Source: a virus. From it: a DNA stretch of 58,998 nucleotides. Shown here piece after piece: positions 6,340-56,598 of the stretch. Numbering within the stretch: the first letter of the stretch is position 1; every line of letters begins with the position of its first letter. The notes under the pieces were generated by a model. It was not told the DNA's origin. It worked only from the letters and a program-made list of their open reading frames with translations, and did not search any database. Made by a program: the position numbers and the translations under genes. The DNA is taken from IMG/VR virus record IMGVR_UViG_3300012206_000008, positions 1 to 58,998 of that record; one strand, 5' to 3'.

Positions 6340-6373
6340 CAACGTAGGGACGCGACCGAGAGGAGGTCAGAGA

Positions 6374-7987: not shown

Positions 7988-8376
7988 GCACATCAACACA
8001 TCCATTCTTACTGCCTTTGACAAAGAGTGAGCCATGCTCAGAGCCAGAATGCCCAACTCTGTCAAGATATGCCATGAGCATTGACAATCACCCTTTCGAG
8101 GTGAAGTGTAAGCGTCACTTACCTGATGGCATTATCCAAGAATACTGGACACGGCGTATGTTGCTCGCAGCACAAGATGGTGATGAGAAGAAAGCGCGTG
8201 CGTTGCTTCGTCAGGTGACGCAACAAGCACGACTCAACGGCTATGAGCGATGTGCCTGTGTTGCGGATGTCAAAGAACAGGGAGCACACAACTCCTACTC
8301 GAACAAAGATATGGCACGCGGTGCTGAGGATATGGCTAAGCAGATAGCACGAACTATCAGATTGTCTATGGAGTAA
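7984..8376 (+). CDS. Hypothetical protein with paired Cys motifs
   Basis: 130 residues; ATGA overlap with the endolysin stop. N-terminal Cys residues (EPCSEPEC) and KCKRH suggest a metal-binding N-terminus, followed by helices (RRMLLAAQDGDEKKARALL). No family recognised. Probably co-translated with the endolysin. Confidence 0.5.
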   Translation: MSTSTHPFLLPLTKSEPCSEPECPTLSRYAMSIDNHPFEVKCKRHLPDGIIQEYWTRRMLLAAQDGDEKKARALLRQVTQQARLNGYERCACVADVKEQGAHNSYSNKDMARGAEDMAKQIARTIRLSME

Positions 8377-8382
8377 AAACCA

Positions 8383-8607
8383 ATGGAAGATACAACAACA
8401 CAGCAAGCAATCAAAAATCAACGGGTGGATATTGACCGATGCATCAAATACGGCAGGTTGTTGCTTGAGTCGGCTAATCGAGGTACAGGTGCAAGAGAAC
8501 TTGCACTCAGTTTCACTCATCTCCAAGAGGCCAAGATGTGGCTAGGGATGGCACTTGGGGAGCTTGGGCACAAATTGCCTGAAGAATATCGAGACGAAGC
8601 TAAATAA
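8383..8607 (+). CDS. Acb2/Tad1-hairpin-like protein (anti-CBASS sponge candidate)
   Basis: 74 residues, almost all helical. It matches the core of the Acb2/Tad1 hairpin domain as I know it: a first helix, then ARELALSFTHLQEAKMWLGMAL at 37-58, where family members have R-E-x-S/A-L-A-x-T-x-L-x-E-A-x-M-W. Acb2 proteins form hexamers that sequester cyclic di- and trinucleotides made by CBASS. Whether this one binds nucleotides is inference. It lies between late genes, as many such small anti-defence genes do. Confidence 0.6.
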   Translation: MEDTTTQQAIKNQRVDIDRCIKYGRLLLESANRGTGARELALSFTHLQEAKMWLGMALGELGHKLPEEYRDEAK

Positions 8608-8652
8608 TACAATCAAGAGTTACGCAGGGAAGCGGTCATGTGGAGGTGTGGA

Positions 8653-9405
8653 ATGGTCAAACGTTTACTAGTGTCTCTTTTTGTTTGTATTGTCCTATCA
8701 CTGTTCGGGGTAAGAAGTGTCGATGCTCAACCGGCTACTACCAACTGTAGTGCAACTTGTCAGAGTTACTCCTACTGGGATGGGCAAACATACGGCGGTG
8801 CGGTCAGTTTCGTCGTCTCGCAACCTGGCTTCTACAACAGCACTGCTTACTTTGCTCGCTACTTGCGCTTAGGCAGTGGCTCACCTCGCCTATTCATTGG
8901 TGAGGTGGTCAACAAGGGGACAGGCGGCCCATATTGCGCAGGATGGTCACAAGCGTTCTTCATGTATAGCTGGAATACCAGCGGTGGACTCGATTTTCAT
9001 CAGTGCTTCACCCTGAACTCTGGCGATACGAACCAACGAGTCGACATTCAGGCTTATTACGACAACAATACCTGTGGCACGGGTGGGCAATACGTCACCA
9101 TCAATAGCGTGACTAATCACTTCGCGAAGTGCGTAGGTAGCACCTCCAACTACAACCGCATGGAACTCCATGAGGAGATACAGGACAATGTGAGTGGACA
9201 TCAAGTGTGGGGGGTGTACTGGGTCAATAGCAAGTACTTTGCGAGCAATGGGACGTATAGCTACCAAAGTCGAGGGGTAGATACGAACTATGCCAATAAT
9301 CCGCCACAGATGTATTGGTACATTGTGCCAAACAGTAACAACTTAGGCGGAGAGATGCATTCTTGCGATTACGACGGAAGCTACACCTGTACGATAGGCG
9401 GCTAG
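8653..9405 (+). CDS. Secreted Cys-rich protein, paralogue of the gene at 16697
   Basis: 250 residues from ATG 8653, chosen because GGAGG sits 6 bases upstream; an ATG at 8638 is possible. A signal peptide (MVKRLLVSLFVCIVLSLFGV, cleavage near VDA) is followed by a mature domain with about nine Cys and a conserved opening, YSYWDGQTYGGAV. The same layout (YWDG, ARYLR, SPRLFIGEVVNKG, NRME, HQVWGV, GGEMHSC) recurs in the protein at 16697. Likely exported and disulfide-stabilised; function unknown. Confidence 0.6.
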   Translation: MVKRLLVSLFVCIVLSLFGVRSVDAQPATTNCSATCQSYSYWDGQTYGGAVSFVVSQPGFYNSTAYFARYLRLGSGSPRLFIGEVVNKGTGGPYCAGWSQAFFMYSWNTSGGLDFHQCFTLNSGDTNQRVDIQAYYDNNTCGTGGQYVTINSVTNHFAKCVGSTSNYNRMELHEEIQDNVSGHQVWGVYWVNSKYFASNGTYSYQSRGVDTNYANNPPQMYWYIVPNSNNLGGEMHSCDYDGSYTCTIGG

Positions 9406-9426
9406 ACGAGTGAGAGGGTGGGAACG

Positions 9427-9681
9427 ATGCGAGCAGTGAAGAAAGATGAGTTTACCGGACAACTCCGTCCAGTTGAGTTTCTACGCATTATTCCCACTGA
9501 CTCCGGCTACCTTCTCGCCCCTACTCGCGTTTCTCAGACCGGAGACCTCATCCATCGTGAGCAAACACCCCGTGCTTTGCCGTCATTGCCGGACTTTTCT
9601 TTTGCAGATTTCTCAACTCACGAATATTGCACATGCTGGCTGACTCAAAACGAGCCTTGCACCCACGCCAACAAACCATAA
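9427..9681 (+). CDS. Hypothetical protein
   Basis: 84 residues from ATG 9427 preceded by GAGAGGGTGGGA; GTG 9418 is an alternative. Ends with a Cys-rich tail (YCTCWLTQNEPCTH) that could bind zinc. No family recognised. Confidence 0.45.
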   Translation: MRAVKKDEFTGQLRPVEFLRIIPTDSGYLLAPTRVSQTGDLIHREQTPRALPSLPDFSFADFSTHEYCTCWLTQNEPCTHANKP

Positions 9682-9699
9682 CAGAAAGGAATGCTATTC

Positions 9700-10269
9700 A
9701 TGTCACTACCGACTATCACCACTTTTCAGCAATTGTTCGTCCTTCTTCTCTCCCCTCTTGTCTTGGCATTCATAGGCGATACTACGGCCGCTATCCTGAA
9801 ACAAGACGGCTTCGATAAGTACTCACCAATCTGGAATGAACTCATAGCATGGGCGGTAGTACTTGTGTTCGCTCTGCTCAGCGTAGTTGCAGACAATCAA
9901 TTCAACGGCGGGCTCAATGCCGTGGCTGATGCGACCATAGCAGCCTTCTCGCTCCTTGCTAGTGGCAGCTTGAAGAGCCTCAAGTACTGGTTGATCTTCA
10001 CGGGATGGGTACAGGCAGCGACAAATTTTGTCCAGGCACCTGCGCAAATTGCTCCACAGGCACCCGTTGCGCCACCTGATCCGGTTGTTGAGGCCTGGCA
10101 GCAAGCCATTGATAAATCCGTTGTACCAATCTCACAGACAAAGAGCACCAACGCGGTATCACCAAGTCCGTTGTCATTGCCGAGCAAGCCACAACCGAAG
10201 CCAATAACGTTGATGTCGACACAGCCTAATCCGATAACGCCAGCAACAGACGAGGACCATTCAGGGTGA
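9700..10269 (+). CDS. Membrane protein with Pro-rich tail (holin-like)
   Basis: 189 residues from ATG 9700, which has AAAGGA at 9-base spacing. Three hydrophobic stretches (about residues 8-27, 43-66, 74-105) are followed by a long Pro/Gln/Ala-rich cytoplasmic or exposed tail. The compact cluster of membrane helices at the N-terminus resembles a class I holin or mycobacterial-phage-like membrane protein near the lysis genes. The stop overlaps the next GTG (GTGA). Confidence 0.5.
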   Translation: MSLPTITTFQQLFVLLLSPLVLAFIGDTTAAILKQDGFDKYSPIWNELIAWAVVLVFALLSVVADNQFNGGLNAVADATIAAFSLLASGSLKSLKYWLIFTGWVQAATNFVQAPAQIAPQAPVAPPDPVVEAWQQAIDKSVVPISQTKSTNAVSPSPLSLPSKPQPKPITLMSTQPNPITPATDEDHSG

Positions 10270-10496
10270 AGTACTACCTGTGCCAAAAGCGCGCAGAGTC
10301 GCAATGTCCTGATTGCGGGCACTGGACATGTTGGGAGGACAGGCGAGACTTCCCTCCGAACTTCGATGACCATGTGTGCTATCCCTGCGTCGGGAAGCGC
10401 AACGACGCGATGGTAGCCCATTGGCGGGATATGTATGCACAGGGGGAGACGTTGAATGAGATGCAATTACGATGGATTGGAGTACAACCGACATGA
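10266..10496 (+). CDS. Small zinc-ribbon protein
   Basis: 76 residues, GTG start overlapping the previous stop. Two CxxC pairs (CPDCGHWTC, then CYPCVG) indicate a zinc ribbon. Helical C-terminus. Function unknown; stop overlaps the next ATG. Confidence 0.5.
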   Translation: MKYYLCQKRAESQCPDCGHWTCWEDRRDFPPNFDDHVCYPCVGKRNDAMVAHWRDMYAQGETLNEMQLRWIGVQPT

Positions 10497-10846
10497 GCAA
10501 GACAAACATTTGCGAGCGATGTGGTGGGCAGAAAACGCTTTACATCGAGATAGAGCCGACTTATAACAATGGCTTCACCTCTGCTGTACGTGCAGAGCAT
10601 ACAAGTGGCACGGTCAGGATATGCCTGTGTCCTCCAAAGGCAAAGCATGATGGCAATCTCGACAAAGATGGTAAGGTTCGTGTTTGGTTCGATGACGATG
10701 TGCCATTTGAGGATGGGTGTGTCCACCTCGGTAATGAGTGGAGCGGTGGTATGAGCCTGTTTGCCAGTGAAGCCCTTTCCCTTCTTGATTGGTTGCAACA
10801 GAACAAGCGCGCACTAGAACGATTGCGAGATAGGACCGATGCTTGA
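10493..10846 (+). CDS. Small zinc-finger protein, unknown
   Basis: 117 residues from ATG 10493 (ATGA overlap). N-terminal CERCGG and later ICLCPP form a likely zinc site; the C-terminal part is an Arg-rich helix (RALERLRDR). No family recognised. Overlaps the next gene by 8 bases. Confidence 0.5.
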   Translation: MSKTNICERCGGQKTLYIEIEPTYNNGFTSAVRAEHTSGTVRICLCPPKAKHDGNLDKDGKVRVWFDDDVPFEDGCVHLGNEWSGGMSLFASEALSLLDWLQQNKRALERLRDRTDA

Positions 10847-11045
10847 CCTATTACAAAGAGACAAGAACGCAACTGAGCAGATGCCAGCCATGCCTACTAC
10901 TGAAGAGGCCATAGCTGATTTGTACGCGCAGATACGCATCTTGCAACAAACACAATGGTCTATCATTATCACGGTATGCTTGCTCTTTCTGGTTGAAGTC
11001 GCGCAATTGTTTGCGATTTATGGTGTCATGGCTAGCGTGCGATGA
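10839..11045 (+). CDS. Small single-TM protein
   Basis: 68 residues: a polar helix (TEEAIADLYAQIRILQQTQ) followed by one membrane helix (WSIIITVCLLFLVEVAQLFAI). Last gene of the rightward block starting at 4756. Role unknown; size and layout are compatible with a lysis accessory protein. Confidence 0.45.
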   Translation: MLDLLQRDKNATEQMPAMPTTEEAIADLYAQIRILQQTQWSIIITVCLLFLVEVAQLFAIYGVMASVR

Positions 11046-11142
11046 ACACAGATACACGCTGGCCGTTCGTGATGGTGTGGGTAGTGGGACAAATGGGGAG
11101 TAGGGGATGGTGAGAGGCCAAGAGAAGCCTGCTCCAATCAAC

Positions 11143-11169
11143 AGAGTCCCTTGTTTTGTCAGGGACTCT
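11143..11169. terminator. Bidirectional terminator between convergent operons
   Basis: AGAGTCCCT (11143-11151) pairs with AGGGACTCT (11161-11169) around a 9-base loop. It lies between the rightward gene ending at 11045 and the leftward gene ending at 11182. T-runs are short on both sides, so efficiency is uncertain. Confidence 0.55.
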
Positions 11170-11181
11170 TGCCTCATCTGT

Positions 11182-11460
11182 CTATCTTGCGGCTGGATCA
11201 CCTTTGGTGTAGCCTTTTGCCATCTCTTCGTATTCTTCAAACAGCACGCGCTTGGAATCACGCTCTTGTGCCTGCTCAGCTAGCTCCTCCTGCCAGCCTT
11301 GCACAAACTTCGCACGAGCTTCGCCAAGCAGACCGACACTCTCGGTTTCTTGCTCTGCTGTAGTTTTATCGAACCATTCGTATCCTCTTGCAGCTAAAGA
11401 GCCTGCGAGATATGGGTCTCTCTGTACGATTTGCCGCCAATCAATCTGATGTTTGGCCAT
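11182..11460 (-). CDS. Hypothetical helical protein
   Basis: 92 residues; last gene of the leftward membrane/FtsK block. Highly charged and helical (EARAKFVQGWQEELAEQAQERDSKR), no membrane segment. No family recognised. Confidence 0.45.
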   Translation of the reverse strand: MAKHQIDWRQIVQRDPYLAGSLAARGYEWFDKTTAEQETESVGLLGEARAKFVQGWQEELAEQAQERDSKRVLFEEYEEMAKGYTKGDPAAR

Positions 11461-11480
11461 GATAGTCTATCCTTTCTATC

Positions 11481-11696
11481 CTATCCAAACAAGTGTGACC
11501 AAAATCCGCCCCTCGGCTCGTGCGTGAACTGCGAGCGGAGTTCGTTGGCTTGTTCAGCCAGTGCATTCCATTGCTGTTCATTATCCGAGGCTTCAATCAT
11601 CTCGATGCGGATATCGAGGTAGTCGTCATACGCCTGTTGTTGTTCGAGGCAAGGCTCTTGTTCAGATGAGCCACTTAACCAATTCCAAAATCCCAC
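11481..11696 (-). CDS. Small protein with MGFW N-terminus
   Basis: 71 residues, acidic and helical, bounded by aromatic ends (MGFWNWLSG and GGFWSHLFG). The same MGFW start occurs in the next upstream gene (11727-11927), suggesting a shared N-terminal anchor or docking motif. Function unknown. Confidence 0.45.
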   Translation of the reverse strand: MGFWNWLSGSSEQEPCLEQQQAYDDYLDIRIEMIEASDNEQQWNALAEQANELRSQFTHEPRGGFWSHLFG

Positions 11697-11726
11697 GATA
11701 GTGTGTCCTTTCTGTATTATCCGATT

Positions 11727-11927
11727 TCAGAAGCCGTTTCGTTTCGCTGCCTTGTCATATGCTTTCGACAAAGCCCGCGTCATCTGCTCATTGGACAGTT
11801 TCGAGGTGTCCAGGTGAAGCAAGCGATTCAGTTGCTCCACCAAGAGTGGATCGGTGATTACTGTGTCTTCCTGTTCAGTCTGTGCGCTTGTTTCCTGTGC
11901 GTCTTGTTTCTTGCTCCAAAATCCCAT
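11727..11927 (-). CDS. Small protein with MGFW N-terminus
   Basis: 66 residues; shares the first four residues with the neighbour at 11481 but little else. Acidic central part, helical C-terminus (SNEQMTRALSKAYDKAAKRNGF). Preceded by AAAGGACATACACC. Function unknown. Confidence 0.45.
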   Translation of the reverse strand: MGFWSKKQDAQETSAQTEQEDTVITDPLLVEQLNRLLHLDTSKLSNEQMTRALSKAYDKAAKRNGF

Positions 11928-11945
11928 GGTGTATGTCCTTTCTTG

Positions 11946-12995
11946 CTATGCGGTTTGTTGTTCTAATCGAAACGCTTTACGGATATCACTGATATAGGCG
12001 ACTGAAATGGATTGTCCTCTTTCACTCGCCTTACGCTGTATCTCACTAATCGTCATCTCTGAGCTTTCAGTCAGACACATACGAACGAAGGCCCCTTTAT
12101 CAAAATCTTGTAGGGCTTTAGGTGCTTCTTTCGCTACGACTTTCAGCGAAGGGACTGAAACGGTCTGCTCTGGTATCCGGCGGATGACTTTTGATTGTTC
12201 CTCTAAGGTCACTTTCACTACTGAAACCTCTTGAACAAACCCCTGATAGACCTCCTGTAACCTCTGTTCGGTCAGAGCTTCCATCCCCACTAACCGATTA
12301 TCTAACGCTGTTTGTGCTTGACTCAATTGCATCGAAACTTCACGGCGCATCTCGCGCATCTGGCTAGTCGTTGTTTGTTCGAGACGGGCTACAGCCTGCC
12401 CCATTTGCTCGTGCATCAAAGCTATGCGGCTCATTGCCTCGGTAAACGCTCTATTCGTTTCGGCTAGGGCGACCTTCGGTGAAATGGTACCCGAAAAACG
12501 CTTATGCTTCGTGCAGGAGAGGGCAATATAACCAATACTTGCCACGGTTCGCAAGAAGAACAAAGGCCACAAGACCCATGGGTTTATTTGGGTTTCAGTC
12601 AAGCCCGCTATGGAGCTCCCAAATTGCAAGAGGAGCATAGCACCCCCAACGAATGCTAAGAGTGCTGAGAGAATACCGTAGAACCATGCTTTGAGAATAT
12701 CACCCTCTTCTCTTGCATCCAGCGAACACACGAGAACAGGGCCGACCGAAACCTCCATAGCTACACCTTGGGCGATAGACCACCAGAGCGAAAGTTCGGC
12801 GTTGTGTGCAAGGAGCTGCCCTCTCTGCAAAAAGTCAATAGCTGATATGATGATCCCGGCTGCGAGCAGGGGTTCGCTCGTTTTGGCAAAAAAGCGAAAG
12901 ATGAAGGATGTTACGACATCATACCAGTTCAGCCCATTGATATCTTTTCCGAATTGCTTCCAGGTGTAGCGTTCTGATTTATTGGTTATCTGCAT
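11946..12995 (-). CDS. Multi-TM protein with coiled coil and C-terminal HTH-like segment
   Basis: 349 residues from ATG 12995; an in-frame start further up would overlap the HNH gene. Four hydrophobic stretches lie in the first half (for example EPLLAAGIIISAIDFL and AWFYGILSALLAFVGGAMLL), then about 100 residues of coiled coil (SQMREMRREVSMQLSQAQTA), and a C-terminal helix-turn-helix-like part (EMTISEIQRKASERGQSISVAYISDIRKAF). The arrangement recalls the membrane Spd/DUF2637-type proteins that accompany TraB on Streptomyces plasmids, but I see no direct sequence match. Confidence 0.5.
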   Translation of the reverse strand: MQITNKSERYTWKQFGKDINGLNWYDVVTSFIFRFFAKTSEPLLAAGIIISAIDFLQRGQLLAHNAELSLWWSIAQGVAMEVSVGPVLVCSLDAREEGDILKAWFYGILSALLAFVGGAMLLLQFGSSIAGLTETQINPWVLWPLFFLRTVASIGYIALSCTKHKRFSGTISPKVALAETNRAFTEAMSRIALMHEQMGQAVARLEQTTTSQMREMRREVSMQLSQAQTALDNRLVGMEALTEQRLQEVYQGFVQEVSVVKVTLEEQSKVIRRIPEQTVSVPSLKVVAKEAPKALQDFDKGAFVRMCLTESSEMTISEIQRKASERGQSISVAYISDIRKAFRLEQQTA

Positions 12996-13008
12996 AGCTT
13001 TTCGCTTT

Positions 13009-13791
13009 CTACTTTTCAGGATGTTTATTAGACTTCTGAGAGTTACACTTTCGGCAAGCGGGGACACAGTTCTCTTTGGTTGTACCGGCTCCATGTCCGA
13101 TAGGGATATAGTGCTCAAGGGCTTCAAATCGAGTACTTTGACAGTAGGCACAAAGAAATTTGAAGGATTGGAGCGTTTGTACCCATTCTGCTACCGTTAA
13201 CGTAGCTGGCTCACCTGCTTGTTTAGCACGATATTTCTGGGAGCGAACGCGAAGGATTTCATGTGCATAGCGACCTTTACATTCTGCACATACCTCGTAA
13301 TGCATGTCAGTCATAGGGCGTGTCCGACAAATCAAGCAAACCATTGGCTTTGGTGCCGATATCACTGGTAATTGTGGAATAACTTTTATAGGTGTCGTCT
13401 GTACTATCGCAAGTTTTTTTGAGTGGAATGCTACAGGTAAAGTGGTTGTCAATGCACAAAGAACTAGCACAGGAGCCAGCCCCACCATAAGAGGATCAAT
13501 GGTGAAAAGTTGATGTGAATATTCTGCCAACTTCCCTAATTGCTCAAAATGTTGAGCATAGACGCTGCCTAACCACCAACTCATACCAACCCATAAGAAC
13601 ATAGCCAACCAAAGACAAAAACGTGTAATCTTATCCTCACAGAAGCGTAAAGCAATTTGAAGGATAATCACGAAAGTCACAAATGCTATAGCAGGAACAA
13701 TACCTATGAAGTAAGCAACATGAACCGTGATATTGAGCAGAATAGGGGCACATATTAGAAAACACCCCCCATACATCCATATGTTTCTCAT
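13009..13791 (-). CDS. Membrane-anchored HNH endonuclease
   Basis: 260 residues from ATG 13791 with GGGAG at 9-base spacing. Four likely TM helices (residues 9-26, 29-49, 57-77, 100-121) are followed by a zinc site (C152, C155, C168, C171) and a C-terminal HNH domain: CAYC at 214-217, E226-H227, N241 and CRKCN at 246-250. HNH domains cut DNA; tethering one to the membrane is unusual in phages. Neighbours are the TM coiled-coil gene and the FtsK-like translocase, so it may act where DNA crosses the membrane. Confidence 0.65.
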   Translation of the reverse strand: MRNIWMYGGCFLICAPILLNITVHVAYFIGIVPAIAFVTFVIILQIALRFCEDKITRFCLWLAMFLWVGMSWWLGSVYAQHFEQLGKLAEYSHQLFTIDPLMVGLAPVLVLCALTTTLPVAFHSKKLAIVQTTPIKVIPQLPVISAPKPMVCLICRTRPMTDMHYEVCAECKGRYAHEILRVRSQKYRAKQAGEPATLTVAEWVQTLQSFKFLCAYCQSTRFEALEHYIPIGHGAGTTKENCVPACRKCNSQKSNKHPEK

Positions 13792-13804
13792 TTTACAATT
13801 CTCC

Positions 13805-15241
13805 CTAGAATAACTCTGCAATAATTTCACTGAGTTCATGAGCCGCTTTTTTATAAGGTGCCCCACCTTGTTTTGTCGTCACTCCCCAAACCTCTTCAAT
13901 AATTTTCGAGGTGGGTGTTTTTTCTCTGAGCAATTCTCGTACACGGGTCGCACGTGCCGAAATTGGTCTTTCTATCGGGATTTCCACGGAATCCGTGGTG
14001 GAATCCGTGGAAAAAGCTGCAAAATCTGGCATTTCTGTCCGTGAGAAATCCGTGGTTTTGACGTGGGGATAAATCGTCAATAATTCTTCAAGAGCATCAT
14101 TCGATGCATAAGGTACCCGAATCAGTGATGCCTGTGGGGTTGCTTGACTTCTGAGCATCACCAGCCCTTTGCCTAGTCCACCGTCGTCTACCGTCCCCTT
14201 CACATCTAAGAGAACACGCGCCGATGTCGCATCACCACCGACATAGAACGCCGTGCGAAAACAATCCCTGACCGCTCCCGTTCCACCCACTGTTTTGACC
14301 AGCCAATCTTGCGCAGCACTCACCAGGTACAAGCCCACTTTGCGACCTTCTCGCAACAAATCTGCCATGTATTCCGGCGCCTCTGGAATACGCTTCACTA
14401 TCGCTGGGAGTTCATCAATTGCTAGGAAGATGGGATCACCCATGGGTTCCATATCACGCCGTCTCTCTAATCGAGATGGCAATTCTTTGAGAGCCAACCA
14501 GGACAACACATCCTTAATAGCTGGATACATGATAGCCGGTTCCATCATGAGTCTTCTCGCAATAGGTCGCCAGTCTTCATCACTCTCAACATCGACTGGC
14601 GTATAGTGTGGATCGGCCAGGATGACACGCGCACCAACACACAGCAATTGTGGCAGTAAGAGCCTCATCAAATTACTTTTCCCACCTCCAGTGGCTCCTG
14701 CTAAGGCTACATGACACAAAGCTTTGACAGGGACGGTTACACGTTCGCCACCAGGGCCGAGAGCTAGCAAGATTTGTTGCTGGGAGGGTCGCCAATCATC
14801 AAGGATATCGGCAAAGTCGCACGGGCCAGGAAGAGCAAGCCGAGGTGATGGTAATCCTTTGGGTTGCTCAGACTCAACCACCTGCGCAGGCTCTACAGCT
14901 TTGATGTTATAGCGGTATTGCTCGCGAGGGTGTGCCGCCTCAACCTGACGTGCAGATGCGTGATAAATGCCTTTGAACGTGCGTATGATGACCACATCGC
15001 CTTTATGAACGACTGTGGCACTATTGAAGACATGCACGGCTAGACTCACCACCAGCAACACGGCGGCTATCTCAAAGAGGATCATGAAGATGTAGAGAGA
15101 CACAAACAAGAATTGACCAAAGGCGTTGACTTGCTCAGGATGGTTCTTATTCATCCACCACAGCACATAGCCCATAGTCATCACCAGGACAATCAATCCG
15201 GCAAGAGCTAGGTACATGAGAAATGGTACAGCCTTTTTCAT
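13805..15241 (-). CDS. FtsK/SpoIIIE-TraB-like DNA translocase
   Basis: 478 residues from ATG 15241, which overlaps the upstream stop by ATGA. Two N-terminal TM helices (about 5-29 and 43-70), Walker A GATGGGKS at 182-189, Walker B IFLAIDELPA at 271-280, and a C-terminal winged-helix-like end (ARATRVRELLREKTPTSKIIEEVWG). Walker motifs and order fit FtsK/HerA motors that pump double-stranded DNA. Shorter than cellular FtsK and without a long linker, like TraB of mycelial actinomycete plasmids. A DNA-transfer or segregation role is inference. Confidence 0.75.
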   Translation of the reverse strand: MKKAVPFLMYLALAGLIVLVMTMGYVLWWMNKNHPEQVNAFGQFLFVSLYIFMILFEIAAVLLVVSLAVHVFNSATVVHKGDVVIIRTFKGIYHASARQVEAAHPREQYRYNIKAVEPAQVVESEQPKGLPSPRLALPGPCDFADILDDWRPSQQQILLALGPGGERVTVPVKALCHVALAGATGGGKSNLMRLLLPQLLCVGARVILADPHYTPVDVESDEDWRPIARRLMMEPAIMYPAIKDVLSWLALKELPSRLERRRDMEPMGDPIFLAIDELPAIVKRIPEAPEYMADLLREGRKVGLYLVSAAQDWLVKTVGGTGAVRDCFRTAFYVGGDATSARVLLDVKGTVDDGGLGKGLVMLRSQATPQASLIRVPYASNDALEELLTIYPHVKTTDFSRTEMPDFAAFSTDSTTDSVEIPIERPISARATRVRELLREKTPTSKIIEEVWGVTTKQGGAPYKKAAHELSEIIAELF

Positions 15242-15462
15242 ATCGATACCCCAAGTGTGGCATACGCCATCTGTGTCTTTTGAGAGGTCATCACCAACAC
15301 TATCACTTGCCTCGACATCCACCAGAACCCAACGAAAACGGCGATGGTGAGAGCACCCACAAACGCAAAAACAAACCCGACACCCACCAATAAAGAGATG
15401 AGTATCCTCAATCCAATTAATGCGCTCGCATCGTAGTGTGTTAAAATTTCTGTGTTCGACAT
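15238..15462 (-). CDS. Small membrane protein before the translocase
   Basis: 74 residues; GAAAGAAG site, stop overlapping the translocase ATG. One long or two short membrane helices (IGLRILISLLVGVGFVFAFVG through VGFWWM). Position and size resemble spread (Spd)-type proteins next to traB on conjugative plasmids; this is by analogy only. Confidence 0.55.
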   Translation of the reverse strand: MSNTEILTHYDASALIGLRILISLLVGVGFVFAFVGALTIAVFVGFWWMSRQVIVLVMTSQKTQMAYATLGVSI

Positions 15463-15489
15463 GATGAACTTCTTTCATCCGGTTCGAGT

Positions 15490-15512
15490 ATGGGCACCCG
15501 ACACGTGCCCAT
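15490..15512. other. Hairpin between HTH gene and membrane block
   Basis: ATGGGCAC (15490-15497) pairs with GTGCCCAT (15505-15512). On the minus strand it lies between the HTH gene and the small membrane protein and lacks a T-run; on the plus strand it is followed by TTTGTTTT. It may be an attenuator or a weak terminator. Confidence 0.4.
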
Positions 15513-15517
15513 TTGTT

Positions 15518-15742
15518 TTACTCTTCGTCTACAGGACGAAACCTTAACAAACTATCGAGTTCAGATTTTTTATAAAACACATTCCGAGTAATCCCACGCT
15601 TGTACTTGGTCAGTCTGCCCTCTTCACCATACCTCTCAAGCGTCCGACGTGTTACCCCCAGGTACCGACACGCTTCATCTGGCGTGAGATACTCATCTGT
15701 ATCTTGTTTTGTCACTTTTGCCTCTTTCTTTTTTGTTGTCAT
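15518..15742 (-). CDS. Excisionase-like HTH regulator
   Basis: 74 residues from ATG 15742. Contains a clear HTH_17/MerR-type motif: YLTPDEACRYLGVTRRTLERYGEEGRL then a short wing (RGITRNVFYKKSELDSLL). No SD is visible and the ATG lies close to a palindrome (15744-15766), so translation may be leaderless-like. Likely regulates its own operon and the divergent GIY-YIG gene. Confidence 0.65.
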   Translation of the reverse strand: MTTKKKEAKVTKQDTDEYLTPDEACRYLGVTRRTLERYGEEGRLTKYKRGITRNVFYKKSELDSLLRFRPVDEE

Positions 15743-15743: not shown

Positions 15744-15766
15744 GTGTTATAATATGCATATAACAC
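15744..15766. promoter_or_regulatory. Palindromic operator in divergent intergenic region
   Basis: GTGTTATA (15744-15751) and TATAACAC (15759-15766) form an 8-bp inverted repeat separated by 7 bases, immediately upstream of the HTH gene. Several TATAAT-like words lie around it (15747-15785). A candidate binding site for the HTH protein at 15518. Confidence 0.5.
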
Positions 15767-15850
15767 GTTACTATTATACATTATACGACATGAATGTCAA
15801 GGGTCAAACGTTCCAATTTAAAAACTCGTTTGAATTTAGAGGAGAAACAG

Positions 15851-16477
15851 ATGTACTTTGTCTATGAACTGCTGGATCAAGAAACCCCGTTTTATGTTGG
15901 TCTCACGACTGACCCTGAAAGGCGCATCTATGACCATGTGTATGCATGGAACAAAACAAAGAAAAAAGGAGTCTATCTTCAAAACATGTTCTCACTTGGG
16001 AGAAAGCCCACGTTGAGAATTATTGAAGAGGTTGAAGAAAAAGCCCTTGGACAACAACGAGAAACATACTGGATAGAGACCTATACTGAGCAAGGAATTG
16101 CTCTGACCAATATTGTTCATGTTGAAGCGAAAAAACAAACACCCAAACCGAAAAAAGAGAAAAGAGTCAAGCAAGTCAGGAAGCCGAGAATGAGGAAGAT
16201 GCTCATACAAGAGGTACCACCACCTCCCGTCAAGCCTCTCTTTTATCAATGGCTGAAGTTCAATGTTCTTGATGAATTGTGGAAAATCTTTCTTGGCAAA
16301 AATGACCCTGATTTGCTTCTTCAAGAAGAAATGCTCACATTGGTCAATCAATTCGTTGAAGAGATTCAGACAAAACGAGAGTTGAGAGAAAAGGAAAAGC
16401 GGCATCTTGAAATTTGGCATTCCTGTTTTGTTTGGCAGTTAACGCACCCTGATGTCGGCCCAGCATTCTCAGGTTAA
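15851..16477 (+). CDS. GIY-YIG endonuclease-like protein
   Basis: 208 residues from ATG 15851 with AGAGGAG upstream. The N-terminal 90 residues are a GIY-YIG domain in variant form: MYFVYELL..PFYVGLTTDPERRIYDHV, with the catalytic Arg in PERR, a following His, and the Glu in RETYWIETY. A basic Lys/Pro-rich linker (KKQTPKPKKEKRVK) leads to a helical C-terminus. Free-standing GIY-YIG enzymes are often homing or repair nucleases. It stands alone, divergent from the HTH gene. Confidence 0.68.
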   Translation: MYFVYELLDQETPFYVGLTTDPERRIYDHVYAWNKTKKKGVYLQNMFSLGRKPTLRIIEEVEEKALGQQRETYWIETYTEQGIALTNIVHVEAKKQTPKPKKEKRVKQVRKPRMRKMLIQEVPPPPVKPLFYQWLKFNVLDELWKIFLGKNDPDLLLQEEMLTLVNQFVEEIQTKRELREKEKRHLEIWHSCFVWQLTHPDVGPAFSG

Positions 16478-16579
16478 TCTTGACCTCGAAACGAGCGAAT
16501 CACGCTTTGCACAGCGATATCGGGAAGCTCTCATACAGAAAGAGTCATAGCACAGCGAAAAACGCACGCTTGCACAAAG

Positions 16580-16606
16580 TCCCTGTCATCTGGCAGGGGT
16601 ACTTTT
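16580..16606 (+). terminator. Putative terminator after GIY-YIG gene
   Basis: CCCTG (16581-16585) and CAGGG (16594-16598) form a short stem followed by TACTTTTG. About 100 bases downstream of the GIY-YIG stop and just before the next promoter. Confidence 0.45.
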
Positions 16607-16633
16607 GTGTCTCCTCGCGTCTTGTGTTACAAT
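16605..16633 (+). promoter_or_regulatory. Promoter of the second secreted-protein gene
   Basis: TTGTGT at 16605-16610 and TACAAT at 16628-16633, spacer 17. The leader carries an AGCCC/GGGCT hairpin near the expected start of transcription and leads to the secreted-protein gene at 16697. Confidence 0.5.
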
Positions 16634-16696
16634 AGCAATACAGCCCTCTTGGTGGGCTAAGATACCGGTGGAAAAGTGGAAGTGAGGTTTTATGTA

Positions 16697-17476
16697 ATGC
16701 GACGTGTTTTCATTGTTGTGTTGTTTGTATTCAGTCTTCTGTTAGTGTCTGTCCTCTTTGTGCCTACACAAGCAGCCCATGCAACAAACTGTAGCTCCTC
16801 TTGTATCGCCTATAGTTACTGGGATGGGCCTACCTATGGCGGTGCGACTATCACGACGGTTTCTGACCCTACGCTCACGAATACAAATGCATATTGGGCG
16901 AGATATCTGAGAATGGGGAATGGCACGCCTAGGCTTTTTGTGGGTATGGTAGTAAATAAAGGGAACGGTGATGGCTCACTATTGTGCAATAACGGTATCC
17001 ATTCATTGCAGTACTTTGTCTATGTATGGGGAAGCTCGTCGAGTGCTCATAAATGCTGGACAGCCCAATCTAGCGAATACAATCAGCTCGTAGGGCTTAC
17101 AGCTAAACCTGACTCTAGATGCACCCCCGAATTAGATGTATCCTTAGAGATACCAGCTACTAATAGTCTCTATGAAGTATGCTCTACTAACGGCGGTAGC
17201 AATCCTAACCTGTACAATAGAATGGAGTTTGATGAAATTCTCGCAGATAATCCGCCAACTAATCAACATGAAGTCTGGGGGGTTGACTGGATAGATAACG
17301 GGTATGAGTCAATAAATGGCACGATAACGTATCAAAATAGAGTAGTTGATGGGTATAGTAACCCACAGCCACCACAAGAGTTCTGGGTAACTGACCCGAT
17401 GAATGGGAACTTTGGAGGTGACATGCAATCGTGCGTGTACCAAGCATTCGTTTTTCACTGTAACATTGGTAGTTGA
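16697..17476 (+). CDS. Secreted Cys-rich protein, paralogue of the gene at 8653
   Basis: 259 residues from ATG 16697, preceded by AGTGAGG; a GTG at 16676 is in frame. Signal peptide (MRRVFIVVLFVFSLLLVSVL, cleavage near AHA), then the same opening as its paralogue: NCSSSC, YSYWDGPTYGGA, ARYLR, TPRLFVGMVVNKG, NRMEF, HEVWGV, GGDMQSC. Identity is clearly partial, so the duplication is old or came from separate sources. Has its own promoter, unlike the late-operon paralogue. Exported; function unknown. Confidence 0.6.
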   Translation: MRRVFIVVLFVFSLLLVSVLFVPTQAAHATNCSSSCIAYSYWDGPTYGGATITTVSDPTLTNTNAYWARYLRMGNGTPRLFVGMVVNKGNGDGSLLCNNGIHSLQYFVYVWGSSSSAHKCWTAQSSEYNQLVGLTAKPDSRCTPELDVSLEIPATNSLYEVCSTNGGSNPNLYNRMEFDEILADNPPTNQHEVWGVDWIDNGYESINGTITYQNRVVDGYSNPQPPQEFWVTDPMNGNFGGDMQSCVYQAFVFHCNIGS

Positions 17477-17546
17477 CCCATAGGTAATCTATCCACAGCC
17501 AGAGGGCGTAATCAAAAGCAAGAGAACAAAATGGAGATTGCGCCCT

Positions 17547-17792
17547 ATGAATTGCCAAGAGTTTGAAGAACTTTCAGGGGCCTATGCACTGGACGCCATA
17601 ACCCCTGCCGAACGTCAGGAAGCCGACGAGCATCTTGCCACATGCCTCAAATGTACCTTGTTGCTGAGTGAATTACGCGAAGTGGTCTCTCTCCTCCCCC
17701 TTACTGTACCACAAGTTAACCCATCACCCACTCTCAAAGAGCGTATTTTTGCTGTGATAGCAGCGATAAAGCATCTCTTTGGAGAGCCATAA
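17547..17792 (+). CDS. Mini anti-sigma-like zinc-binding (ZAS) protein
   Basis: 81 residues from ATG 17547; GGAG is 11 bases upstream. The sequence EFEELSGAYALDAITPAER and HLATCLKC (H29, C33, C36) is the zinc-containing anti-sigma (zf-HC2/ZAS) domain found at the N-terminus of ECF anti-sigma factors. The usual membrane helix and sensor domain are absent: the protein ends 45 residues after the zinc motif. It could bind a host ECF sigma factor in the cytoplasm. The SD region can pair with upstream AGGGCG (17508 area). Confidence 0.65.
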   Translation: MNCQEFEELSGAYALDAITPAERQEADEHLATCLKCTLLLSELREVVSLLPLTVPQVNPSPTLKERIFAVIAAIKHLFGEP

Positions 17793-17829
17793 CAGGACTA
17801 CTTTTGTGCTGTCCTTCTATCCCATCCAC

Positions 17830-20931: not shown

Positions 20932-21035
20932 GCCTTTTCATCTCCTTCCCACAAGCTCACAACTCTCATCACCACAATCCCCAGCACCACTGGAGCGAGC
21001 AAACACACTGACAATATCCACTCATTCAGGCTCAT
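20928..21035 (-). CDS. 35-residue membrane protein
   Basis: A short gene fitted exactly between two neighbours: its ATG at 21035 overlaps the stop of the 21032 gene (ATGA) and its TGA overlaps the next ATG. The product starts MSLNEWILSVCLLAPVVLGI and is a single membrane helix with a charged C-terminus (SLWEGDEKA). Tight coupling on both sides argues that it is real. Confidence 0.5.
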   Translation of the reverse strand: MSLNEWILSVCLLAPVVLGIVVMRVVSLWEGDEKA

Positions 21036-21625: not shown

Positions 21626-22042
21626 CTATACCCTCACCTTCACTGACTTCAGTCTAGAGTTGTCAACAATGTCAACCTTAACTGCAATCTGTTCTTGACT
21701 ATAGACAACATAGCATTCATCACTGTTTGTCTTGACCATACCTTGTGTGATCGCGCTTCTCATCCACTTAGGAACATTGGGGTGAAACCGCCTGGCATCG
21801 GAGCGAGGATATGGCTTATTGCGTGTATCACGTACCCAGGCTAGACCTTCTTGAGTGATTTCATCATCGGGCTTTTCCCAGAGGTAGTTAACAAGCTCGT
21901 TATAACAAGGCGAACAGAGCGTAATATTCGGCACATCTCTATTTGTAACAGTCCATCCATAGAAGGTATATCCACAGTGGTCACATTCAAATGGAGCAAT
22001 GGTACTTCGATGCTTCGTTTCCTTGCCTATTCCATTTTTCAT
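21626..22042 (-). CDS. Zinc-finger protein downstream of the primase-polymerase
   Basis: 138 residues. CDHCGY and CSPCYNEL form a zinc ribbon near residues 20-47; the C-terminal half has basic and Pro-rich stretches (RNKPYPRSDARRFHPNVPKWM). The ATG overlaps the primase-polymerase stop, so the two are co-translated. Possible replication accessory. Confidence 0.55.
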   Translation of the reverse strand: MKNGIGKETKHRSTIAPFECDHCGYTFYGWTVTNRDVPNITLCSPCYNELVNYLWEKPDDEITQEGLAWVRDTRNKPYPRSDARRFHPNVPKWMRSAITQGMVKTNSDECYVVYSQEQIAVKVDIVDNSRLKSVKVRV

Positions 22043-24771
22043 TATGCGCTTACCTCCGGTCTATAATGCTTTGAACAATAAGGGACACCAGTAGGGGTGT
22101 AGTACTCGACTTCTGCCTTACAGACTGAACAGAGTCCAGGGTCATCGGTTTGCGGGGTATGCGGTATTTGCGGGGTTAGTTTTCCACCACCCTCTATATG
22201 AAAAATCTCTATACTTCCTTCCTTTTTGTTAGTATCTAACTCTTCTGATTTTTCACACATGCGTAGGGATAAATTAGATACCGCATACCCCGCATACCCC
22301 GCAACTTTAAAAGTTGCTACTTTGGAATGACTTTCAATACCTTGAACAATGCGTAAGTTTTGCAAACCGTAAGGCGTGCCATTCTTCTTAGAAAGCGCAC
22401 GCCCTAGTTTTCGTGAGAGCGATTTATCTTCTTTGAGGAACATTGATCCTAGAGGTTCAGGAAGAACTTCAGCTAAATCCTTATGAGCATTGAGCTTTTC
22501 AATCAACTCTGAGGTTTTATATTCTTTGTCCCCTAGAATGTTTTGCCAAGTTTCTAAGAAAATAGCCCAAGCATTCCCATCAACATCGGCTTCTTTGTGC
22601 AATTCTGTGATATTTTCAAGAAAGCCGTCTATCCCTGCATAGGAAAGGATTCCCCCAATAACTTCAACCCATCTTGAAAAAGTTGCCAACTTCGCGAGCT
22701 TTTTAGTTGGTTGCGGCTGCCCAGCTTCAAACCATCCTCTAGCGATAATCAGTAGTGCTGAAATGATTTTCCCTCGATTCTCAAGAACAGCCTGATCAAG
22801 ATCAGGATATTTGAAATCTTCTCGTGTCCAAGGGTCGGATATCTGGCTAATGAGGCGGATACGATAGCTCCGGCGTGGTATATCCCCGCCTAACTGGATA
22901 TTATTTCCGTTGGCTATCCAGACGGCACGTTGCGGTACCGTCACATTTTTTGAGAAGCCTAAGACGCGGCTTTTGTGATAATCAGAAGTCAAAACTTTCG
23001 CGAGGATAGGGGATCGTAAGACACCCTCAATATTATCAACTGTAATCAGAGATGCCCCTTCCATGAGTAAAGCGGTAATCCGCTTATCCCATTCTTCATC
23101 ACTGCTTGTTTGTGTGATTGCGGCAGAAGACTTGCCGGTTGCTATCAGAGCAATCATATCTGTAAGCAGTCCTTTTCCCGTTCCTTGTTTTGTTGCATCA
23201 ATGAGAGCAAGAGGCACATGTTTGAACATTTGACGTGTCACTGTGCTAAGCAGCAATCCAACGGTATTAGCATGGTCAGCACGTCCCTCGAAAGGAAAAT
23301 CTTGAATGAATCCGGTGATGAATGCTGCTGCTGCTTTGACTTCCTCGTGTGTAGGATGGGGTGGAATGAGATCGAGGTTGAGACCCTCTTGAGGCATATA
23401 ATAAATACCTGTAGCTTGATCATAACCTGGGGTATCTAGCACCGTTCCATTAGGCCGAATGATGGGTGTTTGCACTAAAGCTTCAAGTGGGGGGAAAGGC
23501 CATTCATCAGGCTTCATAGCGAGAATATCTTGTACTGCATCTTTCGGAGGGGAAACGGCAACTTGGATAAATTCTCCATTTTTTTCTTTCAATCGGTAGT
23601 AGTTGGCAGCATTGGTCAAAACATGACGAAGTTCAGGCTCTCCCATATCCATGATGATCGGGGTGTGTTTTTCATCTCGCCCAATTCGCTTGATTTGAGC
23701 CGATTGAATGAAAAGCATAGGGTTCTGCTTTTCTGCCAGGGTTAAAGCTTGAAGTGATTCATGTGCCGTATTTCTGAGTTGATCCCCAATAAAGATGGTT
23801 GGTAAAGAGGTCTCATCAACAGAAGGAAGAGGGATCTCTGGTTTGTGTCCATTTGCGTTTGTATGAGAAGTCTTTTCCTGTTCGGTGGGGATGTAGATCG
23901 GTTCTTTGACAGGTACAAAACGCGGTTCTCTCGTACCGGCTTCAAGGGCACCGCGTAGGGTATCTTCAATCTCTTTTTCATCTAATCCGGTTCGGAGAGA
24001 TGCATCATAGAGAGCATTTTCAGCAGTAGAGCGTCCAAGTGCATTGCCTCCTACAAGTTGCCCCATCTTGAATGCTGAGAGGTTTAATTGAGTATTGCGT
24101 CCCCCTTGTGGGGTTGTTGCCAGTTCTCTACATTCATTTTCTAAGGCACCTAAACCATAGGGAGTATCACCTGAAGTGGTATGCTGATATCGTGGTTGGT
24201 TGTGAGGGATAGGATTTTTAGCTTTAGCACGCTTTTCTTGAACTTCCTCATACAAGGCAGTTATTTCAGATTGACGTTGCTCTAGTGTGGTAGGGGTATC
24301 AGGAAAATGTCTCCCTGTTATGGTAAAGTATCGTTTGCAGTCGTAAGCCTCGATACGATCATCCCTATCCGCTTTGATATCTGCGTTGATGTTCTCAGGA
24401 AGTGATCCGCGTACCCATATATGTAAGCCTTTCCCACTAGGGGAATATTCGGTATAGGAGTTTAATTTGCGTATGACGTATAAAGCCCATTCAGAAACGT
24501 TACCTTGTTCATCTACACAGTGATCAAGGTCAACACCACTAATCCCTTGCTCTTTGATAAATTCACGGCCTAACCCTTTGAGTAATTGCCTATGTGTTCG
24601 CAAATACTTAACGGCTTGTTCATAGGTAGCCCATGTATCGGGATTGTCTGCTTCCGCTCCGGTTCCTTTTCCGATCTCAAGAGGTTTTTTGTTCTGATCA
24701 TAACCAACCCATTGTTTTCCTGGTTTCAATTCCTCTAACGCTGGTAAAGATTTTTTTGCTACGGTGGACAT
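22042..24771 (-). CDS. Primase-polymerase/helicase replication protein (NrS-1/AEP type)
   Basis: 909 residues. N-terminal archaeo-eukaryotic primase-polymerase core with catalytic pair in GVDLDHC (D81, D83), the SGKGLHIW strand (His 117) and IEAYDCKRYFT near 140-150. Central linker, then an SF3/D5-like ATPase: Walker A ATKQGTGKG (about 527-535), Walker B SLITVDNIEG (574-583), sensor WIANGNN and IPRRSYRIRL. C-terminal zinc ribbon (CSVCK..YCSKHY). Such proteins prime, extend and unwind phage or plasmid DNA. No separate family A/B polymerase is seen. Confidence 0.8.
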   Translation of the reverse strand: MSTVAKKSLPALEELKPGKQWVGYDQNKKPLEIGKGTGAEADNPDTWATYEQAVKYLRTHRQLLKGLGREFIKEQGISGVDLDHCVDEQGNVSEWALYVIRKLNSYTEYSPSGKGLHIWVRGSLPENINADIKADRDDRIEAYDCKRYFTITGRHFPDTPTTLEQRQSEITALYEEVQEKRAKAKNPIPHNQPRYQHTTSGDTPYGLGALENECRELATTPQGGRNTQLNLSAFKMGQLVGGNALGRSTAENALYDASLRTGLDEKEIEDTLRGALEAGTREPRFVPVKEPIYIPTEQEKTSHTNANGHKPEIPLPSVDETSLPTIFIGDQLRNTAHESLQALTLAEKQNPMLFIQSAQIKRIGRDEKHTPIIMDMGEPELRHVLTNAANYYRLKEKNGEFIQVAVSPPKDAVQDILAMKPDEWPFPPLEALVQTPIIRPNGTVLDTPGYDQATGIYYMPQEGLNLDLIPPHPTHEEVKAAAAFITGFIQDFPFEGRADHANTVGLLLSTVTRQMFKHVPLALIDATKQGTGKGLLTDMIALIATGKSSAAITQTSSDEEWDKRITALLMEGASLITVDNIEGVLRSPILAKVLTSDYHKSRVLGFSKNVTVPQRAVWIANGNNIQLGGDIPRRSYRIRLISQISDPWTREDFKYPDLDQAVLENRGKIISALLIIARGWFEAGQPQPTKKLAKLATFSRWVEVIGGILSYAGIDGFLENITELHKEADVDGNAWAIFLETWQNILGDKEYKTSELIEKLNAHKDLAEVLPEPLGSMFLKEDKSLSRKLGRALSKKNGTPYGLQNLRIVQGIESHSKVATFKVAGYAGYAVSNLSLRMCEKSEELDTNKKEGSIEIFHIEGGGKLTPQIPHTPQTDDPGLCSVCKAEVEYYTPTGVPYCSKHYRPEVSA

Positions 24772-42995: not shown

Positions 42996-43436
42996 ATGGC
43001 AAGAGGAACAAAACCATCCGATATTAACGCTGCTGTCCGGTCTAAGCAAGCTTTGGAATTGCGCAAGCAGGGAGCTACGTTAGAAGAGATTGCGCACTCC
43101 TGCGGATATCAAGATAAATCAGGGGCATGGCGTGCCATTAAGCGGGAGCTTGACCGCCTTCCTGCTCCCGCTGTGGATGAATGGCGAAAAGTCCAGTTGT
43201 CGCGTCTTGAGCAGATGCATTCTGAGTGTTGGCTTCTGGCTATGGACCGCAAAAACAAGGGAAGACTTTTCGCCATGGATAGATTGCTGATGGTCAATCA
43301 AGCTATCAACAAGCTCCTTGGATTGGATATTGCTAAAGATGGCAATATTGCCCTGGCACAAACCATTATTCGAGAAGTCCCGCCTGGTTACTTGTCACCA
43401 CCGCCAGAACTCACCACGGAGGCACAGCCAAGTTGA
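42996..43436 (+). CDS. terS: Terminase small subunit
   Basis: 146 residues. N-terminal HTH (ALELRKQGATLEEIAHSCGYQDKSGAWRAI) typical of TerS DNA-binding, then an oligomerisation-type helix pair (RLEQMHSECWLLAMDRKN). Recognises the packaging site and feeds DNA to TerL. It overlaps TerL by TGATG or TTG. Confidence 0.75.
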   Translation: MARGTKPSDINAAVRSKQALELRKQGATLEEIAHSCGYQDKSGAWRAIKRELDRLPAPAVDEWRKVQLSRLEQMHSECWLLAMDRKNKGRLFAMDRLLMVNQAINKLLGLDIAKDGNIALAQTIIREVPPGYLSPPPELTTEAQPS

Positions 43437-44785
43437 TGACGACCACTCTTCATGGACGGCAAGAGGTCGTTATTCAGGCCCCTGAGCTCAGAGGCGCAGC
43501 ATTAGAACTTGGCAGATGTCGAGATTTAGAGTGCTTGCTTGATGGGCCAGCAGGGACCGGAAAAAGTTATGGGGCCTTATTTAAGGTGAACATGATGTTA
43601 ACCTTGTATCCTGGCTCTAAATGGCTACTTGCTCGTAAAACCAATACCGCGCTTGCTGGCTCTGCCGTGGCAACCTATCGTGAATTGCTTCATCCATCTG
43701 AAAATGTCCGGTTCTTTGGTGGGAATAAAATCAAACCGGCAGCATTTGAGTACCCCAATGGGAGCCAACTTATCGTCAATGGGCTTGACAAGCCTGACAA
43801 GGTGAAAAGTTGGGAGTTTGACGGTGCGATGATTAATGAATGTAGCGAGTGTTCGCTTGAAGATATTGAATTTGTTCGCTCTCGACTTCGCCACGGCAAA
43901 GGCCCCTATCATCAGTTAATCATGGACACCAATCCTGATGCTCCCACTCATTGGTTAAATGTTCGCTGCAATGAGGGTATCACCACCAGATTGCTCAGTC
44001 GTCACGAAGACAATCCTCGCCTCTACGATACGAAAACCAATGACTGGACGCAAGAGGGACGGCGGTATATCTTTGAGGTGTTAGGTGGGCTGACAGGTGT
44101 CAGGCTTGCACGATTGCGCTATGGTGTGTGGGCCGCTAGCGAGGGCAGTGTGTACCAAGACTCCTGGGATAGGAATAGAAATGTGATAGACCGCTTTCCT
44201 CTTCCTGCTACCTGGGAAAGGTACTTATGCATCGATTTCGGGTTCGTGAATCCCTTTGTCTGTGGCTGGTGGGCAAGAGACCCCGATGGGCGGCTTATCT
44301 GCTATCGTGAGATATACCTGACCCAAAAATTAGTTGAAGACCATGCCAAAGATATCAAGCGGCTTTCCCGTTGGGGTCAAGACGGAGGCGACCCTCTCCC
44401 ACGAGAGATTATCTGCGACCATGACGCAGAAGGCCGCCAGACGCTCGAAAGACACTTAGGGTTAATCACGCGCCCAGCCTATAAAGCGGTATCTGAAGGT
44501 ATCCAGGCTGTAGCGGCAGTCTTGAAACCTGCTGGTGATGGACGACCACGCCTTATGTATTTCAGAGATGCGCTTGTTGAACGTGATAGGGACTTGGCGG
44601 CTAGGAAGAAGCCCACTTGCACGGTTGAGGAATATGATACGTATATTTGGAGGCAAGGCCCGAATGTAACCGTCAAAGATGAGCCGAACAAGGAAGATGA
44701 CCATGGAATGGATATGTCAAGATATATCGTAGCACGCTTTTCTTTGCGCCCAACCGACGTTCGGTATTCATCGCGGATATACTGA
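43436..44785 (+). CDS. terL: Terminase large subunit
   Basis: 449 residues; ATG 43436 overlaps the TerS stop, TTG 43433 is also possible, GGAGG is 12 bases upstream. Walker A GPAGTGKS at about 37-44, Walker B region FDGAMINECSE, coupling motif MDTNPDAP, and the RNase-H-like nuclease: LCIDFGFVNPF, IICDHDAEG, and EDDHGMDMSRY. ATP-driven motor and nuclease for headful or cos packaging. Order terS-terL-portal-MuF is standard. Confidence 0.9.
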   Translation: MTTTLHGRQEVVIQAPELRGAALELGRCRDLECLLDGPAGTGKSYGALFKVNMMLTLYPGSKWLLARKTNTALAGSAVATYRELLHPSENVRFFGGNKIKPAAFEYPNGSQLIVNGLDKPDKVKSWEFDGAMINECSECSLEDIEFVRSRLRHGKGPYHQLIMDTNPDAPTHWLNVRCNEGITTRLLSRHEDNPRLYDTKTNDWTQEGRRYIFEVLGGLTGVRLARLRYGVWAASEGSVYQDSWDRNRNVIDRFPLPATWERYLCIDFGFVNPFVCGWWARDPDGRLICYREIYLTQKLVEDHAKDIKRLSRWGQDGGDPLPREIICDHDAEGRQTLERHLGLITRPAYKAVSEGIQAVAAVLKPAGDGRPRLMYFRDALVERDRDLAARKKPTCTVEEYDTYIWRQGPNVTVKDEPNKEDDHGMDMSRYIVARFSLRPTDVRYSSRIY

Positions 44786-56597: not shown

Positions 56598-56598
56598 C

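Follow-up and report, generated by a model that had tools for sequence, protein, structure and literature searches.

Known systems of single-motor DNA transfer

Single-motor (TraB-type) DNA transfer has been described for actinomycetes. TraB is a single FtsK-like motor for double-stranded DNA (dsDNA) that reads short clt repeats through its C-terminal helix-turn-helix (HTH), and the Spd membrane proteins, which are encoded in the same operon, are needed for intramycelial spread (PMC12857230, PMC3583192, PMC4170104, PMC5365140). Actinomycete integrative and conjugative elements (AICEs) are composed of Int, Rep or Prim-Pol, and an FtsK-type Tra (PMC3218068); a 2011 survey found them confined to Actinomycetales, but actinobacterial genomes alone were searched (PMC3218068). 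In Thermus, transjugation involves TdtA of ICEth1, a membrane FtsK-HerA ATPase with an adjacent NurA nuclease, and DNA leaves the donors without a type IV secretion system (T4SS) (PMC5365140). Here we analyze a block of genes in a soil virus sequence of 58,998 bases (IMG/VR record IMGVR_UViG_3300012206_000008, referred to in its entirety as the window). The window is clearly DNA of a tailed phage, and our best reading of the block is that a possible phage-plasmid has captured a module for dsDNA transfer (or segregation).

Organization of the block and comparison with known systems

The preliminary description of this DNA had listed four open reading frames (ORFs), and all of them are indeed present on the minus strand in the order given there. 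The operon-like block is nevertheless longer than had been described, with an HTH regulator gene upstream and three small ORFs (11182-11927) downstream. In order of transcription, its main genes are:

15518..15742, minus strand: HTH_17/excisionase-like (MerR-type) regulator, which leads the block (PF12728, 8.4e-10, above the gathering score; TIGR01764, 1.1e-8)
15238..15462, minus strand: small membrane protein of 74 amino acids (aa) with two hydrophobic stretches
13805..15241, minus strand: membrane-anchored FtsK-type DNA translocase of 478 aa with an HTH-like C-terminus, called T below (DUF87, 2.7e-7; PDB profile search; tree)
13009..13791, minus strand: protein with four transmembrane (TM) helices, a C-terminal zinc-type Cys cluster and an intact HNH nuclease domain (PF01844, 7.1e-8; hydropathy; HNH of PDB entry 4h9d, 3e-5)
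11946..12995, minus strand: membrane protein with four TM helices, a coiled coil and an HTH-like C-terminus, called M2 below (hydropathy; secondary structure of a low-confidence model)

Gene starts were revised from ATG codons located a few bases past the preceding stop and from purine-rich stretches upstream of them. This places the start of the HNH protein at 13791 and that of M2 probably at 12995, not 13151; M2 otherwise has the composition that had been described. The start of T overlaps the stop of the small membrane protein gene, and the regulator ORF is open as far as 15781. The small membrane protein had no family match in the profile library searches.

Motor, membrane and DNA-binding parts thus stand together in one operon. 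We tentatively favor the reading, whose probability we put somewhat short of even, that the phage captured a transfer module which functions in the manner of TraB and whose motor comes from a Chloroflexota family of small FtsK-type translocases found on integrative or plasmid-like elements. By analogy, the T family would work like TraB; we do not claim that it belongs to TraB.

The block resembles the Streptomyces TraB/Spd systems (pIJ101, pSVH1, pWTY27) and AICEs in having a single membrane-anchored FtsK-type motor with an HTH-like C-terminus, encoded together with small membrane proteins and an HTH repressor in one operon, and in that relatives of T lie beside Int plus Rep or primase genes. 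It differs from the Streptomyces systems in that its T represents a Chloroflexota family of about 480 aa with a low profile score to pIJ101 Tra, its partners show no SpdB homology, its setting is a tailed phage, and an HNH nuclease gene is inserted. The pairing of a membrane FtsK/HerA-type ATPase with a nearby nuclease gene is shared with TdtA/ICEth1. However, TdtA is HerA-like and has no detected DNA-binding domain, its nuclease is NurA and not HNH, and the pair resides in an integrative and conjugative element. The nearest precedent is the conjugal plasmid-phage pZL12 of Streptomyces, which differs in host phylum and lineage; for the phage of the window, a plasmid state and transfer are putative. 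The FtsK-type cores of the mobile replicons pDU1, pPg_01, pTpau01 and of the Streptomyces MBT27/11x1 plasmids are like T and fall close to those of the phages in the tree, but the membrane partners of these cyanobacterial and actinobacterial plasmid translocases differ or lack annotation. The TraB/Spd parallel drawn in the preliminary description therefore holds for architecture and for genomic company, as the tree and the mobile-element neighbors described below indicate; homology of the partners with SpdB and a proven clt are not supported.

The translocase

Hydropathy, DUF87 and the PDB profile search agree that T is, as had been suggested, an FtsK-type protein with two TM helices. Its two hydrophobic helices are N-terminal (residues ~5-78), and its Walker A motif is GATGGGKS. 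A helix pair is also predicted at the N-terminus by a low-confidence structure model (pLDDT about 70-80 at residues 11-50). The C-terminus appears HTH-like by eye in several family members, and the model confidence there is about 30. In Pfam, T matches DUF87 (the HerA central domain) with an E-value of 2.7e-7, FtsK_SpoIIIE below the threshold, and TrwB weakly.

When a profile built from six members of the family was compared with the PDB, FtsK/SpoIIIE and EccC came out on top, followed by the pCW3 coupling protein TcpA, with HerA lower. The hhalign comparison with pIJ101 Tra gave a probability of 91.7% and an E-value of 7.6e-7. The family profile scored 46-81 bits to chromosomal FtsK, 9 to pIJ101 Tra, 7 to TrwB and less than 0 to F TraD. 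Hence, the motor of T is of the FtsK type and not of the VirD4 type.

A maximum-likelihood tree was calculated for the ATPase core of 26 proteins, some of which have long branches; the Ktedonobacteria protein G003_C21 was left out of it. Chromosomal FtsK proteins form a tight clade that is separate from the mobile-element and phage translocases. The non-FtsK side holds the phage proteins, those of the Chloroflexota elements and of cyanobacterial and actinobacterial plasmids, and pIJ101 Tra (supports 88, 95 and 91). The position of pIJ101 Tra on this side has a support of 88, but its branch is long and its profile score is the 9 bits given above.

These results bear on the explanation that T is a standard T4SS coupling protein (VirD4/TrwB) or a copy of chromosomal FtsK. 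The weak DUF87/TrwB matches in Pfam speak for it, but the bit scores to TrwB and F TraD do not, and relaxase and VirB4 families were found in none of the ORFs covered by general scans, which included no dedicated profile search for them. Furthermore, T lies outside the tight FtsK clade and has two TM helices and 478 aa, as opposed to four TM helices and 700-1300 aa in chromosomal FtsK (700-850 aa in the narrower of the two ranges that we used). We consider this explanation very improbable. A profile placement of T with ordinary chromosomal FtsK had been named in the preliminary description as an argument against its proposal. In this respect the outcome is divided: the core is FtsK-type by profile, yet the protein falls outside the chromosomal FtsK clade.

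Relatives in Chloroflexota elements

Members of the T family are found in bacterial genomes. The Ktedonobacteraceae metagenome-assembled genome G001 holds four of them, and others are present in G003, in G034 (13.7 Mb) and in further Chloroflexota. The membrane partners are kept at at least four loci, where they are arranged as M1-T-M2 (L003 and L013), M1-T (L012) or T-M2 (L123), M1 being the membrane protein that accompanies T. The M1 protein of a related phage, G002, is 60% and 52% identical to two Ktedonobacteria copies. The C-terminal half of M2 resembles the partner protein G001:C282 with an E-value of 7e-5 in a nine-protein comparison, whereas homology between the TM parts of the phage and element M2 proteins was not significant, so the support for their relationship consists of topology and this one C-terminal match.

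At the Chloroflexota loci, T has as neighbors an ArdC gene and a large serine recombinase gene reading into a PALP gene, and elsewhere an HUH Rep (PF23343), tyrosine integrases (PF00589) and D5 and NrS-1-type primases. With integrase, Rep or primase, and ArdC beside T, albeit in different loci, the Chloroflexota T loci resemble AICEs in layout. The element ends of the G003 locus were not found. The terminase of the phage lineage was not found in G001 or G034, so the T copies in these two genomes do not appear to belong to prophages of this family. Our literature search retrieved no paper that connects Chloroflexi with ICE and FtsK, and none on such Chloroflexota elements. We also noted a number of integrative-looking Chloroflexota elements in which a small FtsK-type T is combined with an integrase, HUH Rep or primase (L117, L118, L119, L120, L122, L123 and L011).

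Related phages

The set of genes had been described as rare in tailed phages, and this is borne out by the translocase, which gave a single weak match in 50,697 phage records and one close viral contig. By terminase, the nearest named phages are Thermobifida P1312 and the Streptomyces siphophages TP1604 and YDN12 (43-48% identity). All three infect mycelial bacteria, and the translocase search matched none of them among the phage records.

Among the relatives identified by the terminase large subunit (TerL), G002 (58,807 bp; TerL 61%, portal 39%) has the order M1-T-M2, its M1 being a 4-TM protein of 177 aa. G056 (33,228 bp; TerL 62%) has the order M2-like, M1, T, and its M1 shares 33% identity with the G002 protein. 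In the window, G002 and G056, the block and the late genes are convergent: they lie on opposite strands, and the block adjoins the point where the late genes end. The T of G056 belongs to a different subclade of the tree (support 95); hence, the block was acquired at least twice at one locus. In contrast, the full-length relative G051 (59,070 bp; TerL 65%) has no such translocase, which makes the block accessory. Absence of the block from close relatives, which the preliminary description had considered as evidence against its proposal, is thus the case for G051 but not for G002 and G056. Most of the other TerL relatives are fragments, and absence from them is not informative.

An accessory position, absence from G051 as well as from contigs of other relatives, and presence in no more than three of the examined TerL relatives would also be expected of moron cargo, i.e. 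transfer genes of an element that are carried passively and help the phage little, or that act solely in DNA entry or in takeover of the host. However, the block has been kept open together with its partners over about 50% divergence, G056 gained it independently at the same locus, and it has its own promoter and an operator-like palindrome. On balance, we find passive carriage quite improbable.

Two additional observations concern these relatives. In G061 (L077), a regulator-like HTH gene precedes that of a 4-TM protein whose topology is M2-like (15841-17808), and there is no translocase on this 38 kb contig. In G051 (L070), short TTGGYTCACAC-like repeats with a 36-nt spacing form an array close to where the late genes end, at ~11620-12690 (contig 51622-52686).

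Phage genome, host and mode of maintenance

By PHROG-type profile matches, the window encodes TerL, portal, minor head protein and major capsid protein. Two of its genes are of importance here:

43433..44785, plus strand: terminase large subunit, which marks a tailed phage (phrog_2, 7e-33)
22042..24771, minus strand: primase-polymerase/D5-like replication protein (PHROG DNA primase/polymerase)

A contig of another sample is 99.8-100% identical to the structural half of the window and extends beyond both window ends (window 43350-58998 corresponds to contig 1-15649, and window 1-3288 to contig 20083-23370). As this contig bridges both ends, the window is a permuted genome that lacks ~4.4 kb of the tail gene region. 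The replicase of the window is 36% and 41% identical to the primases of the Chloroflexota element loci L119 and L123, where they lie beside translocases. The window also carries two endonuclease VII-like genes (41931-42479 and 49961-50728).

The host is probably a member of the Chloroflexota, presumably a filamentous one. A Ktedonobacteria host appears plausible from sequence comparisons, as relatives of the translocase occur there and the terminase of the lineage is present in one (G012) of 47 genomes of the Ktedonobacteria class.

Of the attributes of a phage-plasmid, phage genes and a primase-polymerase replicase are present in the window, whereas a profile search found no tyrosine or serine integrase (PF00589, PF00239) there, and ParA was found neither in the window nor in its relatives. 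An integrase-free window is compatible with an extrachromosomal life. Tyrosine recombinases are encoded in G002, G051, G056 and G062, and in the first three of these they are close to the terminase genes.

A role in segregating an extrachromosomal prophage would fit the data almost as well as transfer. In this case, T and the membrane HTH protein would tether and position the prophage, pump it through closing septa and replace ParABS, with no intercellular transfer. The missing ParA and integrase genes, the FtsK-type motor core and the presence of two proteins that join membrane helices with HTH-like ends are all consistent with such a function, and in Streptomyces the functions of spread and stability are hard to separate (PMC4170104). 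However, G002 and G056 keep the module despite their tyrosine recombinases, with which they presumably integrate, and the relatives of T sit in integrating elements, where partition is less important. We regard segregation without transfer as unlikely, though it deserves serious consideration.

The HNH nuclease

The membrane-anchored HNH nuclease of the preliminary description was recovered with four hydrophobic stretches that precede the Cys cluster and the intact HNH motif. Among the loci examined, its gene is found only in the phage of the window. Scans of viral contigs with the HNH and M2 proteins returned no relative, and a direct comparison of M1 with the TM part of the HNH protein detected no similarity.

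A nuclease fused to four TM helices within the operon raises the question of superinfection exclusion or defense, in which the membrane HNH nuclease and an FtsK/HerA ATPase would cut or block incoming phage DNA at the membrane. PADLOC matches T to mad8/HerA and the HNH protein to PDC-M01B/PtuB. However, E. coli FtsK, used as a control, scores 185 bits against mad8 and T of the window only 36, so the mad8 match marks the fold only. The HNH matches, in turn, span just the short HNH motif, and the HNH protein cannot define the function of the module because neither G002 nor G056 nor any of the chromosomal modules has its gene. Defense is, in our estimate, an improbable function of the block. The more specific assignment to MADS/HerA defense on the basis of the mad8 match was rejected, as the FtsK control was stronger and no other MADS genes were seen.

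A possible transfer mechanism

If the block is a transfer module of the kind that we favor, it could work as follows. In a lysogenic or extrachromosomal state, the HTH repressor would leave its operator and the operon would be expressed. The two N-terminal helices would hold a hexamer of the translocase at the membrane, where the small membrane protein and M2 are its putative docking or pore partners. The C-terminal HTH domains would recognize a site in the phage genome, for which there is one candidate:

13981..14055: clt-like cluster of three direct copies of GGAATCCGTGG and one inverted copy, in the linker of the translocase (repeat scan)

The motor would then pump double-stranded phage DNA over the membrane into the neighboring cell of the filament, and the phage may in this way move its genome between cells without virus particles. 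The membrane HNH nuclease would be a phage-specific addition that may process DNA or exclude competitors. The genes and their order, the phage setting, the ties within the family, the pattern of conservation and the promoter match are observed; we infer the state of expression, the recognition of DNA, the direction and substrate of pumping, and the spread from cell to cell.

A search for clt-like repeats had been suggested in the preliminary description, and the cluster within the T gene is what it yielded. In a genome-wide scan it is the sole cluster of repeated 11-mers in the window, and none was obtained in 8 shuffles. Its copies are spaced by 12 and 45 nt, both divisible by three, and are translated into S/T-T-D motifs. 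We give the cluster little weight since these in-frame spacings make a coding origin as likely.

That the candidate clt may be a coding repeat is one of several points that weigh against a transfer function, and the G002 translocase gene contains nothing corresponding to it. The family profile scores only 9 bits to pIJ101 Tra compared to 46-81 bits to FtsK. The AlphaFold models of T and M2, built from three-sequence alignments, are of low confidence (mean pLDDT of 43.7 and 49.6). In a direct comparison, the partner proteins, M2 included, show no homology to pIJ101 SpdB; a search with DUF2637 also gave nothing, but it is uninformative because the controls were likewise silent. Furthermore, G051 shows that such a phage lives without the block, ParA was not found in the window, and an integrase-free window also fits a purely lytic phage.

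A broader proposal would be that tailed phages of filamentous Chloroflexota spread in two ways, by virions and by T-driven pumping of dsDNA prophages between the cells of a filament, with a single-motor machine shared with undescribed AICE-like elements outside Actinobacteria. We consider this doubtful, although a real possibility. If it were true, the TraB-type mode of transfer would have arisen in, or spread to, a second filamentous phylum, phages would exploit single-motor transfer and would have taken it up more than once, and virion-free spread of a phage would become testable.

Promoter, small genes and flanking region

The remaining features of the block are as follows:

15773..15800, minus strand: sigma-70-type promoter TTGACA-16-TATAAT (a 12/12 consensus match only)
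15744..15766: palindrome GTGTTATAATATGCATATAACAC of 23 bp, a candidate operator between the promoter and the first ATG (read from the sequence; putative role)
11727..11927, minus strand: small ORF of 66 aa, assigned to the same operon by its spacing and by AGAAAGGA upstream
11481..11696, minus strand: small ORF of 71 aa, assigned to the same operon by its spacing
11182..11460, minus strand: small ORF of 92 aa, assigned to the same operon by its spacing

The block is flanked by a paralogous pair of genes (8638-9405 and 16676-17476), whose products have N-terminal signal-like hydrophobic stretches, are 40% identical to each other and belong to no known family. A GIY-YIG endonuclease gene (15794-16477), possibly that of a homing endonuclease, is divergent from the block and has the promoter region in common with it.

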